Assembly: GCF_003713065.1 (NCBI RefSeq)
Contig: NZ_CP033433.1
Span: forward strand, 2,853,001 to 2,917,000
DNA from: Cohnella candidum
Lineage (GTDB): Bacteria > Bacillota > Bacilli > Paenibacillales > Paenibacillaceae
Reading direction: 5' to 3'
DNA length: 64,000 nt
Shown here: positions 26,297 to 50,107 of the stretch, piece by piece
Layout: each line of letters begins with the position of its first letter
Position numbering within the stretch: position 1 is the first letter of the stretch
The notes under the pieces: model-generated
The model's input: the letters and a program-made list of their open reading frames with translations, nothing else
The model's database searches: none
Told to the model about the DNA's origin: nothing
Position numbers and translations under genes: made by a program

Positions 26297-27388
26297 TCAA
26301 ATCACTTCGCGCTCGTCGTTGCCGGGAAGCGTCGGGAACGGGGCATGCGGCTCCGCTTGGTACCAGAAGGCGGTAGACGCGATGTCGCTCTGCTGCGGCA
26401 AATAGCGGCGTTCCGAACGCCAGCCGAGGTCTTGGATCGTCACCTTCAGGTCGTTTTCGAACCGGATCGGATCCATGACGTGCCAGCGGTACATACCAAA
26501 GCGCTGTTGGCTGCGGTATAACCCGTCGGGCTTAATCGCCTGGTGCATGCCGAGGTAAGCCGTCGAATAGGTCCTGTAAGTTCCCAGCGGCTGCTCCCAG
26601 TTCCAAGCGCCGCCGAAATAGTCTTCGGTGCCCGTCCCGCAGATCGTCGGGAACTCGCCGTCCCCGTCCATGTAGAACTTGATTTCGCCTTCTCCCCACC
26701 AGCCCGTGTTATTCACCTGCCAGGCCAGATAGGTGCCCACGTAGTGGCCTTTGCCCTTGATGCCGTCGAGGATCGTATGGACGTCCTTGTACGCGACCGG
26801 GTTGCTGCGGCGCCATTGCGCGTGGAAGTAAGCCGCATCCGCCGGCACTTCCGTCAACGTGTAGTCGATTTGATAGTACAGGACGGCTTTATTTGGGTTT
26901 TTGTTTTCCATCGTGATCTTGGCGGATTTGCGGAACGGCATCAGCCAATAGCTGTTGAACCCTCCGGCCGGATTGACGGCGATCGGCAACGAGTTGACGT
27001 CGGCGCGCTCCTGCCAGCCGTTGCAGAAGAAGTCGCACACCGGCACTTCAACCGACGGCGTCTCCTCTCCGTCCCAATAAAGCCGGAAAATCAAGTTCCG
27101 CCATTCCGGCGGGAAACACGTCAGCCAAATGTGCTGAATGGCGCCGGGGCCTTGAATCTCGCCCATCACGAACTCCGTGCCCGGTTCGATCTCTACGGAA
27201 GGCGACACTTTCCAGCCGACGCCGAGATCCCGCGCGCAGGCCGCGCCTGTACCTTCCGTCGCCATGGCGCCCTTGCCCTTCTCTCCCGTGAAATTCTCGG
27301 GGCTGATCGAACGAGTCACCGCGTTCGACAGGCGCGCCAAATTGCCCAATCCCATATCCAAACCGTTAAAATTATACATTCTCTTCAT
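26297..27388 (-). CDS. GH172 (DUF2961) glycosidase, candidate exo-D-arabinofuranosidase
   Basis: 363 residues, no signal peptide, so cytosolic; MYNFNG three codons in is an alternative start. The GH172 core is clear: GEIQGPGAIQHIWLT, FRLYWDGEETPSVEVPVCDFF, GKGHYVGTYLAW, then WWGEGEIKFYMDGDGEFP and GTGTEDYFGGAW. Glu233 and Glu255 are the probable catalytic pair by analogy with characterised GH172 members. Known activities are on D-arabinofuranose chains and on fructose dianhydrides. It is the last gene of a fucU-DUF4185-GH172 unit, which favours D-arabinose release. Family call is strong; substrate is inferred. Confidence 0.88.
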   Translation of the reverse strand: MKRMYNFNGLDMGLGNLARLSNAVTRSISPENFTGEKGKGAMATEGTGAACARDLGVGWKVSPSVEIEPGTEFVMGEIQGPGAIQHIWLTCFPPEWRNLIFRLYWDGEETPSVEVPVCDFFCNGWQERADVNSLPIAVNPAGGFNSYWLMPFRKSAKITMENKNPNKAVLYYQIDYTLTEVPADAAYFHAQWRRSNPVAYKDVHTILDGIKGKGHYVGTYLAWQVNNTGWWGEGEIKFYMDGDGEFPTICGTGTEDYFGGAWNWEQPLGTYRTYSTAYLGMHQAIKPDGLYRSQQRFGMYRWHVMDPIRFENDLKVTIQDLGWRSERRYLPQQSDIASTAFWYQAEPHAPFPTLPGNDEREVI

Positions 27389-27403
27389 CTCCTTCGTTTA
27401 TCG

Positions 27404-29071
27404 TCAAGAATAGTAGACTTCAAGCTCGCTGACGGACGTGAACGCTTCATCTCCGCCAGGTTTGCCGATAATCCTCACGCCGTCTCCGGCGATCTCGTCG
27501 AACGTGAACGTATAGGTTTGATCTTCCGCGCTCGCATTGGCCGGATAAGCCGGCGAGACTTTGGCGTTTTTCACGTCCACCCATTCGAAATTTTGCCGCA
27601 CCTGAACCCGGACGTTTTCGAACCACCCTCCGGAGGACGAAGGAGTCCCGTTGGTGAACACGACTTTGTTCATCCGGTAAGATTTCGGCCAGACGTACCC
27701 CCACCAATCTTCGGGCTTCCGTTCGCCGTTAAAGCTGTCCACCGACTCGTCCTTTTTGCCGTCGTTCAGTTTGGCGTTCCCCCCATTGCCCATCGTTCTA
27801 GCGTAAGGGGCGACATCCGGGTCATAGGAAGGCAGTGCCAGATTGTCGTTGCTCTTCCGGTTGGTGGCTTTCGTTTTCTTATAAGGCGTCACTTTCATTT
27901 TGCGGAGCGAGAAATCGTAGTTTTTCACGCCTCCGACGAACGTGTTGGCGTTCAGCCACATTTCGCGGCCGTCTTCGTTGATGAACTTAGACGGGATGAC
28001 CGTCGCGTAGCCGCCGTTCTTATCCTGCGTCCACGGATAATCCCCGAAGTCCGCCGAATAGAATCTTTTCCATGGGCCCCAAGGCTTCGGCGCCTCATAA
28101 AATTCGAACGTGAATTCGGTCCACGACGTGTATAAATAGCGGTCTAGCGGTTTGTCGTATACGATGCTGCCCTGCGAAATGACGGACATGTTGCCCAAAC
28201 CGTCCGTCAGGCGGTCCGTATACACCCGGCGGTCGTCCTGCAGCACCGGCTTCCTCGAAGCGATATCGCCGGCTTTCGTCCATTTCGCCTTGCCCTTCAG
28301 ATTCCCGGCGTAAAACTCCCAAGCCGACACGTCCTGGATTTTATCCTTCGGCATCCGGGCCAGGTACAGCTTGGTCGGGTCCGTCACTTTATCGTTAAAC
28401 GAGTCCCGCCAGTTGTAATCCATTCCGTACGCGTAGACATAGTCGTCGAACGTGTTGTTCGCCCCGTCCTTGCCGTAATCCAAAAACATGACCGTCGTGA
28501 AGACATGGTCCTTGAACATCGGGGCGTTGGGCCCCACCTTCCAATTCTTCCCTTTGTCGGTGGACTTCAGGATGGTCGCGGCCGGCACCTCGTTGAAAAT
28601 GTCCCCCGTTTTATCGTCCTTGCTCAGGTCCTGCACCGCCAGGTACAAATCGCCGTTCACGGAGACCATGCCCGTCGGTTTCCGGTTATACAGCGCCGGA
28701 TCGGACCATACTTGGCTCACGCCGTCCCCCGCTGCCAATCTCTCTCCATCGAGGTTTTGGGTCCATGGAGAGCCGGTGATCTTGTTCACGACGATGTCGG
28801 AAAACTCGGATCCGAAATCGAAACCGGCGCCGTCCCCGTTCGCGGTATAGAGATTGTCGTCGTCGGACCAGGCGACCGGCCACAAATCCCCGTCGCTGAA
28901 GGTCGAGTAAGTGGAATTCGGCTCTACCTGCACGGTGGAGAAGAAGGTGCTCTCCTCTGGAATCACTTTGCCTTGCGGATCCGGCGAATCTTCGCCGCTG
29001 CAAGCTGTGACCAGCAGGATGCTTCCCAAAACCGACATGGCCGCCGCTTTCCCTCCTTTGATCCCCCTCAT
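27404..29071 (-). CDS. Surface lipoprotein with DUF4185-like propeller and discoidin-like domain
   Basis: 555 residues. Lipobox LLVTAC with lipid Cys24. The body (about 50-400) is a divergent DUF4185-type beta-propeller: FSDGDLWPVAWSDDDNLYTANGDG, GMVSVNGDLYLAVQDLS, ATILKSTDKGKNWKVG, YDKPLDRYLYTSW. A C-terminal discoidin/CBM32-like domain (about 405-555) ends GVRIIGKPGGDEAFTSVSELEVYYS. DUF4185 includes endo-D-arabinofuranases (GH183), but this copy lacks the GTDLG/FGDTF pair of the other three paralogues here and may differ in substrate. Its start overlaps the fucU stop by four bases. Confidence 0.78.
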   Translation of the reverse strand: MRGIKGGKAAAMSVLGSILLVTACSGEDSPDPQGKVIPEESTFFSTVQVEPNSTYSTFSDGDLWPVAWSDDDNLYTANGDGAGFDFGSEFSDIVVNKITGSPWTQNLDGERLAAGDGVSQVWSDPALYNRKPTGMVSVNGDLYLAVQDLSKDDKTGDIFNEVPAATILKSTDKGKNWKVGPNAPMFKDHVFTTVMFLDYGKDGANNTFDDYVYAYGMDYNWRDSFNDKVTDPTKLYLARMPKDKIQDVSAWEFYAGNLKGKAKWTKAGDIASRKPVLQDDRRVYTDRLTDGLGNMSVISQGSIVYDKPLDRYLYTSWTEFTFEFYEAPKPWGPWKRFYSADFGDYPWTQDKNGGYATVIPSKFINEDGREMWLNANTFVGGVKNYDFSLRKMKVTPYKKTKATNRKSNDNLALPSYDPDVAPYARTMGNGGNAKLNDGKKDESVDSFNGERKPEDWWGYVWPKSYRMNKVVFTNGTPSSSGGWFENVRVQVRQNFEWVDVKNAKVSPAYPANASAEDQTYTFTFDEIAGDGVRIIGKPGGDEAFTSVSELEVYYS

Positions 29072-49055: not shown

Positions 49056-49099
49056 TCCGATCATCCTCTCCCATTGAGTTGGTATGATTGCTGGTTCGT

Positions 49100-50107
49100 T
49101 CAACCGATGCGGTTGACTTCGTTGCGGAATATCTCAAAAACGGGTTCTGCCGGCGTTTCTTCCTTGCGGATCCGTTTCAGCAGTAATTCGCCCGTCTTGA
49201 TCCCCATGTCGTAAGGATGCTGGTCGATGTAGTACAGCCCGGGATTCTTGAGCAGAGATCCCGCTTCCACTTCCCCGAAGGAAGCGACCGCCATGTCGTC
49301 GGGAATCTTGAGCCCGCTGCGGACGATCTCGAGCAGAACGCCCAGGCTCATCCGGTTGTTCAGCGAGACGATTGCCGTCGGCTTGGGATCGGATTTCAAA
49401 AACTTGCGAACCGCCAGCACGCCGTCCTCCGTCGAGAAATCGCCGTTGTACACGAGCGGTTTCGGATCCAAACCATGTTCCCTCATGGCTTTCAGAACGC
49501 CCTCGTAACGCTCCCGTCCCGTGCTGACGCGGGCAGGACCGTTGACTACGCCAAGCCGCACGTGGCCATCTTCGAGCAGTTTGCCGGTCAGGCGGCAAGC
49601 GCCTTCTTCGTTGTCTTCGGCCACGAGGTCAAGGCCGGCTCCCGCTTCGTCCGATTCCAGCTTCCGGTCGACCAGCACGATGGGCAGTCCCGAGTCGCTC
49701 AACTGCTTGACCTTCTCGTCGTTGCCGCCGGCCGTGGCGAGCACGATCGCGTCGACCCTCTTCTCTTGCAGTAACTGCAGAAGGCGGTTTTCCTTGTCGG
49801 GACTCTCGTCCGAGCTGCAGAACATGAGCTGAAAGCCTTCGGGACCCACGACGTCTTCGATGCCTCTGGAAATGCCCATGAAGTAGGAGTTGGAAATGTC
49901 GGGCACGATAACGCCGATCATGTACGTCTTGTCCTGCTTCAGGCTTCTCGCGATGGCGCTCGGCTGATAATTCAGCTTGGCGACCGCTTCCAGCACGCGC
50001 TCTTTGATTTCGTCGCTGACGTAACCGCTCTCGTTCAGCACCCGGGAGACGGTCGCCGTCGAAACCTCGGCTTCCGCGGCCACTTCCTTAATCGTTGCCT
50101 TAGACAA
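49100..50107 (-). CDS. LacI-family regulator of the fucI-araB region
   Basis: 335 residues from a TTG start with AGAGGTG seven bases upstream (MSKATIKEVAAEAEVSTATVSRVLNESG). Helix-turn-helix about 5-26, hinge, then the effector domain: TYMIGVIVPDISNSYFMGISRGIEDVV, AIVLATAGGNDEKVKQL, TAIVSLNNRMSLGVLLEIVRSG. A further in-frame ATG lies at 50137. First gene of the LacI-fucI-araB unit and the best candidate to bind the TGCAATCGATTGCA sites. Its own promoter region carries three adjacent 12-bp near-palindromes. Effector presumably D-arabinose, D-ribulose or a phosphate of it. Confidence 0.92.
   Translation of the reverse strand: MSKATIKEVAAEAEVSTATVSRVLNESGYVSDEIKERVLEAVAKLNYQPSAIARSLKQDKTYMIGVIVPDISNSYFMGISRGIEDVVGPEGFQLMFCSSDESPDKENRLLQLLQEKRVDAIVLATAGGNDEKVKQLSDSGLPIVLVDRKLESDEAGAGLDLVAEDNEEGACRLTGKLLEDGHVRLGVVNGPARVSTGRERYEGVLKAMREHGLDPKPLVYNGDFSTEDGVLAVRKFLKSDPKPTAIVSLNNRMSLGVLLEIVRSGLKIPDDMAVASFGEVEAGSLLKNPGLYYIDQHPYDMGIKTGELLLKRIRKEETPAEPVFEIFRNEVNRIG

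Follow-up and report, generated by a model that had tools for sequence, protein, structure and literature searches.

A predicted D-arabinan utilization locus in Cohnella candidum and its link to the DUF6259 protein family

Gene content of the locus

The genome of Cohnella candidum (RefSeq assembly GCF_003713065.1) consists of a single contig of 5,289,049 bases (NZ_CP033433.1), from which we analyzed a stretch of 64,000 nucleotides (bases 2853001-2917000; "the window" below). The window includes a locus of roughly 38 kb, located at about 11.7-50.2 kb and including a 3.4-kb interruption. We consider it highly probable that this locus lets Cohnella feed on D-arabinan, a polysaccharide found in the cell walls of mycobacteria, with a protein of the DUF6259 family likely serving as a cytosolic end-cap enzyme, most likely for beta-D-arabinofuranose. 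The locus has a right half (26297-50212) and a left half (11680-22748), and its genes are listed in Table 1. When the entire 5.29 Mb is searched, DUF4185 has four matches and DUF2961 has two. Because all of them are found at the locus, the clustering of these two families is not due to chance.

A first-pass annotation of the same DNA had proposed a D-arabinan locus at 26297..50107, including four DUF4185 proteins, two DUF2961 proteins, FucU, an ABC importer, a kinase, and FucI. Profile matches place all of these genes where they had been named. The limits, on the other hand, were drawn too narrowly: the DUF6259 protein, the zinc-dependent dehydrogenase, the Gfo/Idh oxidoreductase, and the LacI and AraC regulators were not listed, and the left half contributes another importer, a two-component system, and a further LacI regulator. 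The open reading frame at 29514-30392 (minus strand) was dropped as a gene; it belongs to no family and is antisense to the AraC regulator.

Table 1. Genes and operator-like sites of the locus (positions in the window)
Feature	Position	Strand	Match or remark
Second ABC importer, two permeases	11680-12492, 12496-13542	-	BPD_transp_1
Second importer, two tandem sugar-binding proteins	13472-14824, 14912-16231	-	SBP_bac_1
Two-component system (AraC-type response regulator, dCache histidine kinase)	16233-19621	-	
LacI2 regulator	19618-20781	-	true start probably later
X675w, orphan protein	20706-22748	+	no Pfam match; true start probably later
GH172a, predicted cytosolic ExoMA1-type exo-alpha-D-arabinofuranosidase	26297-27388	-	DUF2961, 334 bits
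P0006, divergent DUF4185-like lipoprotein	27404-29071	-	PF13810, 45 bits; weak F5/8-type match at end
FucU mutarotase	29068-29517	-	RbsD_FucU
AraC-family regulator	29667-30563	+	divergent from FucU
GH183c, predicted secreted endo-D-arabinanase	30621-32849	-	DUF4185, 344 bits
Operator-like palindrome	32834-32849		one mismatch; start of GH183c
Gfo/Idh/MocA oxidoreductase	33357-34439	-	family match
Zn-dependent alcohol/polyol dehydrogenase	34469-35470	-	family match
GH183b, predicted secreted endo-D-arabinanase	35550-37511	-	DUF4185, 353 bits; CBM_4_9 domain
DUF6259 protein (P0008), predicted cytosolic retaining glycosidase	37612-39837	-	PF19773; core gene
First ABC importer, two permeases	39865-40692, 40718-41605	-	
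First importer, binding lipoprotein	41685-43091	-	
GH183a (P0003), predicted endo-D-arabinanase lipoprotein	43180-44301	-	DUF4185, 291 bits
GH172b, predicted cytosolic DgGH172c-type enzyme	44328-45491	-	DUF2961, 290 bits; true start probably later
Operator-like palindrome	45536-45551		perfect; before GH172b
AraB-type ribulokinase (FGGY kinase)	45573-47243	-	TIGR01234
D-arabinose/L-fucose isomerase FucI	47262-49103	-	FucI match above cut-off
Operator-like palindrome	49023-49038		perfect; 5' end of FucI
LacI1 regulator	49100-50212	-	

Predicted D-arabinan-degrading enzymes and sugar catabolism

The first-pass annotation had treated all four DUF4185 proteins as candidate GH183 enzymes. The domain scores above the Pfam cut-off in each of them, though barely in P0006 (45.2 vs 39.5 bits). 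GH183c matches EndoMA1 (8hhv) with 323 bits over residues 84-549, which covers the putative D-arabinan-binding domain, and its layout is an EndoMA1-like catalytic domain and putative binding domain plus an Ig-like domain. GH183b matches EndoMA1 with 341 bits, the putative D-arabinan-binding domain included, and carries the CBM_4_9 domain as an extra; the score of GH183a is 176 bits. According to its published study, EndoMA1 needs the nucleophile D33, the acid/base D51, and the supporting E243, while R198 holds the sugar. The needed residues are conserved in GH183a, GH183b, and GH183c (P0003, P0004, and P0005) as well as in all of their aligned relatives (21, 9, and 7 sequences, those of the window included; for the catalytic residues of GH183a, 21 of 21). 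Matches shorter than 85% of the full length or with a stop codon, such as the split GH183a of locus L044 and the broken GH183c of L056, are excluded from these counts. In P0006, the position equivalent to E243 is Asn and the region of D33 and D51 did not align, and P0006 is therefore not assigned to GH183; no relative of it was found in the PDB comparison. The GH183 assignment thus holds for three of the four proteins.

GH183a-c are predicted to be endo-D-arabinanases, two secreted and one a lipoprotein. Hydrophobic N-termini are found in all four DUF4185 proteins, and a lipobox in P0003, P0006, and the binding protein of the first importer, by a crude scan for hydrophobicity and lipoboxes rather than a trained predictor. 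By the same crude scan, neither feature is found in GH172a, GH172b, or the DUF6259 protein. The exported DUF4185 proteins and cytosolic GH172 proteins of the first-pass annotation agree with this result.

Both GH172a and GH172b have the DUF2961 domain and the two catalytic Glu residues. GH172a matches ExoMA1 (8ic8) with 472 bits, compared with 155 bits for the difructose dianhydride enzyme alphaFFase1. It conserves the catalytic Glu residues and has Asn at the position of ExoMA1 Asn253, which the authors of the ExoMA1 study describe as blocking fructose. The best match of GH172b is 4kq7 (312 bits), a hypothetical protein identified as BACUNI_00161 in a published study, followed by 8ah3 (294 bits) and alphaFFase1 (252 bits). 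8ah3 is labelled DG02479 and is taken here as DgGH172c. GH172b has Cys at the specificity position, as do 4kq7 and 8ah3, and this Cys and the Glu pair are present in all 22 aligned GH172b sequences, the window's own included. GH172a is therefore predicted to be an ExoMA1-type, and GH172b a DgGH172c-type, cytosolic exo-alpha-D-arabinofuranosidase. By pairwise bit scores, not by a tree, both are nearer to characterized alpha-D-arabinofuranosidases than to alphaFFase1, so that the fructose-dianhydride clade, named in the first-pass annotation as the placement that would speak against D-arabinan, is not indicated. With the profile check suggested there, all six GH172 and DUF4185 proteins score over the cut-offs.

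FucI has its best PDB match in the D-arabinose isomerase 3a9r (1003 bits), the next being the L-fucose isomerase 1fui (881 bits). The ribulokinase scores 761 bits with TIGR01234 (cut-off 583), and its best PDB match is the ribulokinase 3qdk. AraB-type ribulokinases accept D-ribulose. The best NCBIfam match of FucU is L-fucose mutarotase, but it is under the family cut-off.

These genes suggest the following route. Extracellular D-arabinan would be cut by the two secreted GH183 enzymes and the GH183 lipoprotein, as their homology and intact catalytic residues imply, and the oligosaccharides would be taken up by one or both ABC importers. Inside the cell, GH172a and GH172b would take alpha-D-arabinofuranose off the ends, and the DUF6259 protein is predicted, from genomic logic and fold, to take off caps that block them. 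Judging by their families, FucI would convert D-arabinose to D-ribulose and the ribulokinase would convert this to D-ribulose-5-phosphate. Induction would involve binding of a LacI regulator to a shared 16-bp palindrome (see below) as well as the AraC and two-component regulators. This outside-to-inside route, already proposed in the first-pass annotation, is well supported by sequence comparison because of the close matches to characterized enzymes, the catalytic residues, the D-arabinose isomerase nearest to FucI, and the conserved synteny described below.

Instead of mycobacterial-type arabinan, the locus might serve a different D-arabinofuranose glycan, for example that of pili or lipopolysaccharide in Gram-negative bacteria, or alpha-fructans. 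Published studies describe cleavage of Pseudomonas pilin D-arabinan as well by some GH183 enzymes and by most GH172 enzymes tested, and an alpha-fructofuranosidase also belongs to GH172. We nevertheless regard such a substrate as improbable: two of the enzymes resemble EndoMA1 and share its putative binding domain, GH172a has the Asn that excludes fructose, and FucI and ribulokinase are present for free D-arabinose.

Related loci and a candidate operator

Among 392 genomes of the order, 16 carry a full-length DUF6259 relative (≥57% identity). A full-length DUF4185 protein is found in all 16, but in only two of the other 376 (G145 and G153). In each of the 16, a DUF4185 domain exists on the same contig no more than 3.4 kb away from DUF6259; one genome (G352) carries DUF6259 a second time, at another place. 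The co-occurrence has a Fisher p of 3e-25 with the own genome excluded, a value in which genome relatedness overstates independence. A first set of 60 genomes gave 14 of 14 with DUF6259 versus one of 45 without (own genome excluded). The 392-genome count is the unbiased test, and up to five DUF4185 and two DUF6259 candidates per genome were scored in it.

Gene order was compared across 24 distinct loci, obtained from 14 genome stretches and 17 named loci, seven being identical loci, and selected by a DUF6259 or GH183 match. The stretches are 20-22 kb long and cut loci short, so that the counts per locus are lower bounds. GH172 and the first permease are found in all 24 and GH183 in 23, and in 22 loci the second permease of the first importer is directly before DUF6259. 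GH116 (four loci), X675 (seven), and a GH127-like gene (two) are variable. The GH127-like gene, of the beta-L-arabinofuranosidase family, adjoins GH116 in two Cohnella loci (L041:2677-4614 and L044:18456-20000). FucU (one of 24) and the Gfo/Idh oxidoreductase (none) are not conserved members. The Zn-dependent dehydrogenase is conserved in 15 loci, though the isomerase-kinase route has no need of it. Some genes are broken by sequencing errors or decay: GH183a of C. thailandensis (L044:3545-4662) and FucI of Paenibacillus sp. XY044 (L060:873-2609) are each divided into two pieces, and L056 has several broken genes.

The whole system is found as one run in C. thailandensis (L080, L044, and L081). 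Its right part has the order LacI1-FucI-ribulokinase-GH172b-GH183a-first importer-DUF6259-GH183b-Zn-dependent dehydrogenase-GH183c-GH116-GH127-like-GH172a, and it continues contiguously with LacI2-histidine kinase-response regulator-two binding proteins-two permeases. Compared with this run, the window lacks GH116 and the GH127-like gene and otherwise has the same genes. Between GH172a and LacI2, the window has X675w and three genes (22740-26118) that match nothing in L041-L074; these encode a polyketide-cyclase-like protein, a LuxR-type ATPase regulator, and a DUF2269 membrane protein, and look like an insertion. C. lubricantis (L076, L041, and L077) has both halves, with LacI2 and GH172a about 14 kb apart. 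A different cassette of about 13 kb (L076:8859-19864), consisting of GntR, Fe-dependent alcohol dehydrogenase-like, GH42, enolase-like, importer, and aldehyde dehydrogenase genes, sits at the matching boundary, and the boundary therefore seems to be insertion-prone.

Such splitting, and the presence of only a three-mismatch palindrome in the left half, would also be expected if the left half were an independent transporter locus merely adjoining the D-arabinan genes. This is unlikely. In C. thailandensis (L081) the halves are contiguous: GH172a is immediately followed by LacI2, the kinase, the regulator, the binding proteins, and the permeases. The right half of the Paenibacillus loci L069-L071 has LacI2 and the kinase directly behind it. 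LacI2 is found in 16 of the 24 loci and LacI1 in 13. Other left-half genes also have conserved relatives. The permeases of the second importer (75-89% identical) and the tandem binding proteins (71-79%) keep their order in C. lubricantis L076 and C. thailandensis L081, the permeases adjoining LacI2. Virgibacillus ndiopensis (L072) has a binding-protein pair (59% and 66% identical) near DUF6259, and relatives of the two-component system (60-77%) adjoin LacI2 in L070, L071, L076, and L081. In the right half, the AraC regulator has relatives 68-76% identical in L041, L053, L055, L056, and L057.

A perfect 16-bp palindrome, CTGCAATCGATTGCAG, is found before GH172b and at the 5' end of FucI, with a one-mismatch copy at the start of GH183c (Table 1). 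Weaker sites with three mismatches are located at 45474 and at the boundary of LacI2 and X675w (20764). The window thus has five sites with at most three mismatches versus 0.38 expected, a number reached in none of 100 shuffles. Genome-wide, sites with two or fewer mismatches number only three, all at the locus, and the reversed control gave none. Related loci have 25 sites in 30 stretches, compared with a mean of 0.25 after single-base shuffling; the palindrome is seen in 15 of the 24 loci and not in the other nine. Its form suggests a candidate operator for a LacI-family regulator, the presumed binding protein. Nearly all other 12-mers shared between intergenic stretches were trivial, arising from two overlapping stretches, and only the palindrome was kept.

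Two further gene groups exist in the window. A separate locus at 1521-9817 includes a GH36 alpha-galactosidase, a LacI regulator, a two-component system, and a binding protein; it was considered as part of the system and rejected, as L041-L074 contain no match to its GH36 gene. Mannitol-type phosphotransferase genes (PEP-utilising enzyme, MtlD, PRD regulator, and EIIBC) are located at 53052-60015, and a tRNA-Arg gene lies within this region (56243-56326).

DUF6259, X675w, and known D-arabinan systems

For the DUF6259 protein, PF19773 is the only Pfam match at E 0.001, and there is no membership of the GH129 sequence family in Pfam. The folds nearest to its predicted model are a retaining GH129 alpha-N-acetylgalactosaminidase, a GH129 alpha-3,6-anhydrogalactosidase, and a Flavonifractor alpha-galactosaminidase. 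The overall fold is shared with GH129 NagBb and the GH36/GH101 fold group, whereas identity to NagBb is 13% and the Pfam family is different. Fold searches for this protein and X675w used predicted models, and the nearest folds named here are those among the matches listed. Based on genomic logic and fold, the DUF6259 protein is predicted to remove end caps resistant to GH172; these are most likely beta-D-arabinofuranose, with alpha-galactosamine as the main alternative. We suggest tentatively, as a guess we would not bet on, that such proteins form a new glycoside hydrolase family, a Bacillota exo-beta-D-arabinofuranosidase with a GH129-like barrel unrelated to GH116, which completes a self-sufficient core of GH183, GH172, ABC importer, and DUF6259.

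X675w is the other candidate. GH116 (PF04685) has no match in the whole genome, while the same search hits three of 14 control genomes, two over the cut-off; X675w, with no Pfam match, has no GH116 catalytic domain. Its predicted model is an (alpha/alpha)6 barrel, shared with GH76 mannanases and cellobiose and N-acylglucosamine 2-epimerases, the nearest folds; identity is about 10%, and most of these matches cover only residues 190-645. X675w is thus a candidate cytosolic sugar enzyme. X675 relatives adjoin GH183 in L043, L045, L047, and L106. The first three are satellite loci with X675 and GH183 and, in L045 and L047, an importer, and neither GH172 nor DUF6259 is found in the stretch; they are a second, smaller kind of GH183 locus.

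Fifteen of the 17 named genomes have an X675 relative. In five of the 17, any GH116 match is limited to about 100 residues or less (three have none, and two have short ones at E 7e-4), and all five carry X675, while the two without X675 carry GH116 at 71% and 64% identity. A swap of X675 for GH116 is suggestive only, because these numbers are too small, and an overlap of 0 in 24 loci, with four and seven carriers, would also often arise by chance. DUF6259 as a strict swap for GH116 was rejected, both being present in four of the 24 loci.

These observations bear on a possibility that we rank as real but do not expect, namely that the locus serves D-arabinan while the DUF6259 protein, as an alpha-glycosidase, acts on a side group such as the galactosamine of arabinogalactan, and beta-D-arabinofuranose caps are left to X675w or another enzyme. 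The GH129 and Flavonifractor alpha-galactosaminidase folds fit this role. So do the tight importer-X675-GH183b rows of L045 and L047, the position of X675 ahead of GH183c in L043, with the palindrome directly in front of X675, and the failure to find X675 and GH116 together in any of the 24 locus stretches. The last point is weak, as said, and GH116 chains score weaker than GH76 and epimerases among the Foldseek matches of X675w. To our knowledge, galactosamine is sparse and limited to slow-growing mycobacteria. In PMC7502851, galactosamine is placed on C2 of 3,5-branched arabinofuranose in mycobacterial arabinogalactan; a 2012 title cited there gives it as alpha-linked, and a 1997 title gives it for slow-growing mycobacteria, which would hardly explain why every such locus has the gene.

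Several points weigh against our reading of a D-arabinan locus with a beta-D-arabinofuranose-removing DUF6259 protein. The beta-D-arabinofuranose assignment is weak because alpha-galactosamine-type pyranosides and an alpha-anhydrogalactoside are the substrates of the enzymes with the nearest folds. DUF6259 persists in the four loci that also hold GH116, and so it may do something else, and X675w is a second candidate without an assigned role in the same neighbourhood. GH183a is more distant from the solved member than GH183b and GH183c, and unrelated genes split the two halves both here and in C. lubricantis. The natural target may be mycobacterial arabinogalactan, lipoarabinomannan, or another D-arabinan.

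Few enzymes that trim D-arabinan are known, and they serve as tools in the analysis of glycans from mycobacterial cell walls. The locus provides a Bacillota version of the pathway and a candidate operator for its regulon. It also ties two protein families without an assigned role, DUF6259 and X675, to D-arabinan by synteny, and DUF6259 by strong co-occurrence as well.

Two known systems, both published in 2023, can be compared as far as the available parts of the papers describe them. The D-arabinan locus of Microbacterium arabinogalactanolyticum (PMC10509167) likewise has four DUF4185 genes, GH172, a putative ABC importer, an isomerase, and a kinase, with a signal sequence on the endo-enzymes and none on the cytosolic exo-enzymes. 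Exported endo-enzymes, an ABC importer, cytosolic GH172, isomerase, and kinase are all predicted in the window too. Microbacterium has a GH116 exo-beta-D-arabinofuranosidase, which the Cohnella genome lacks, whereas the Cohnella locus has a second GH172, DUF6259, X675w, a second importer, and a two-component system as extras. PUL42 of Dysgonomonas gadei (PMC10115798) likewise has GH172, including the GH172b-type DgGH172c, GH183, and a predicted fucose isomerase; it is a polysaccharide utilization locus of Bacteroidota, for which no ABC importer is described in the available text, and a putative GH116 gene in it is noted by PMC10509167.

The first-pass annotation had suggested that the combination with ABC import may be undescribed in this bacterial group. 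As a combination it is already published for Microbacterium; for Bacillota the suggestion stands, as far as text searches outside most subscription journals reach. These found nothing pairing D-arabinan with Cohnella, no Bacillota locus with D-arabinan and Paenibacillus as terms, and no mention of DUF6259. In the accessible part of PMC10509167, whose Figure 9 shows clusters of other bacteria, Paenibacillus stands in a reference title and DUF6259 is not mentioned. As the searches retrieved the two 2023 papers but no locus from Bacillota, we regard the whole system as a Bacillota variant of the published D-arabinan locus, in which the DUF6259 link and the regulon are the new parts.

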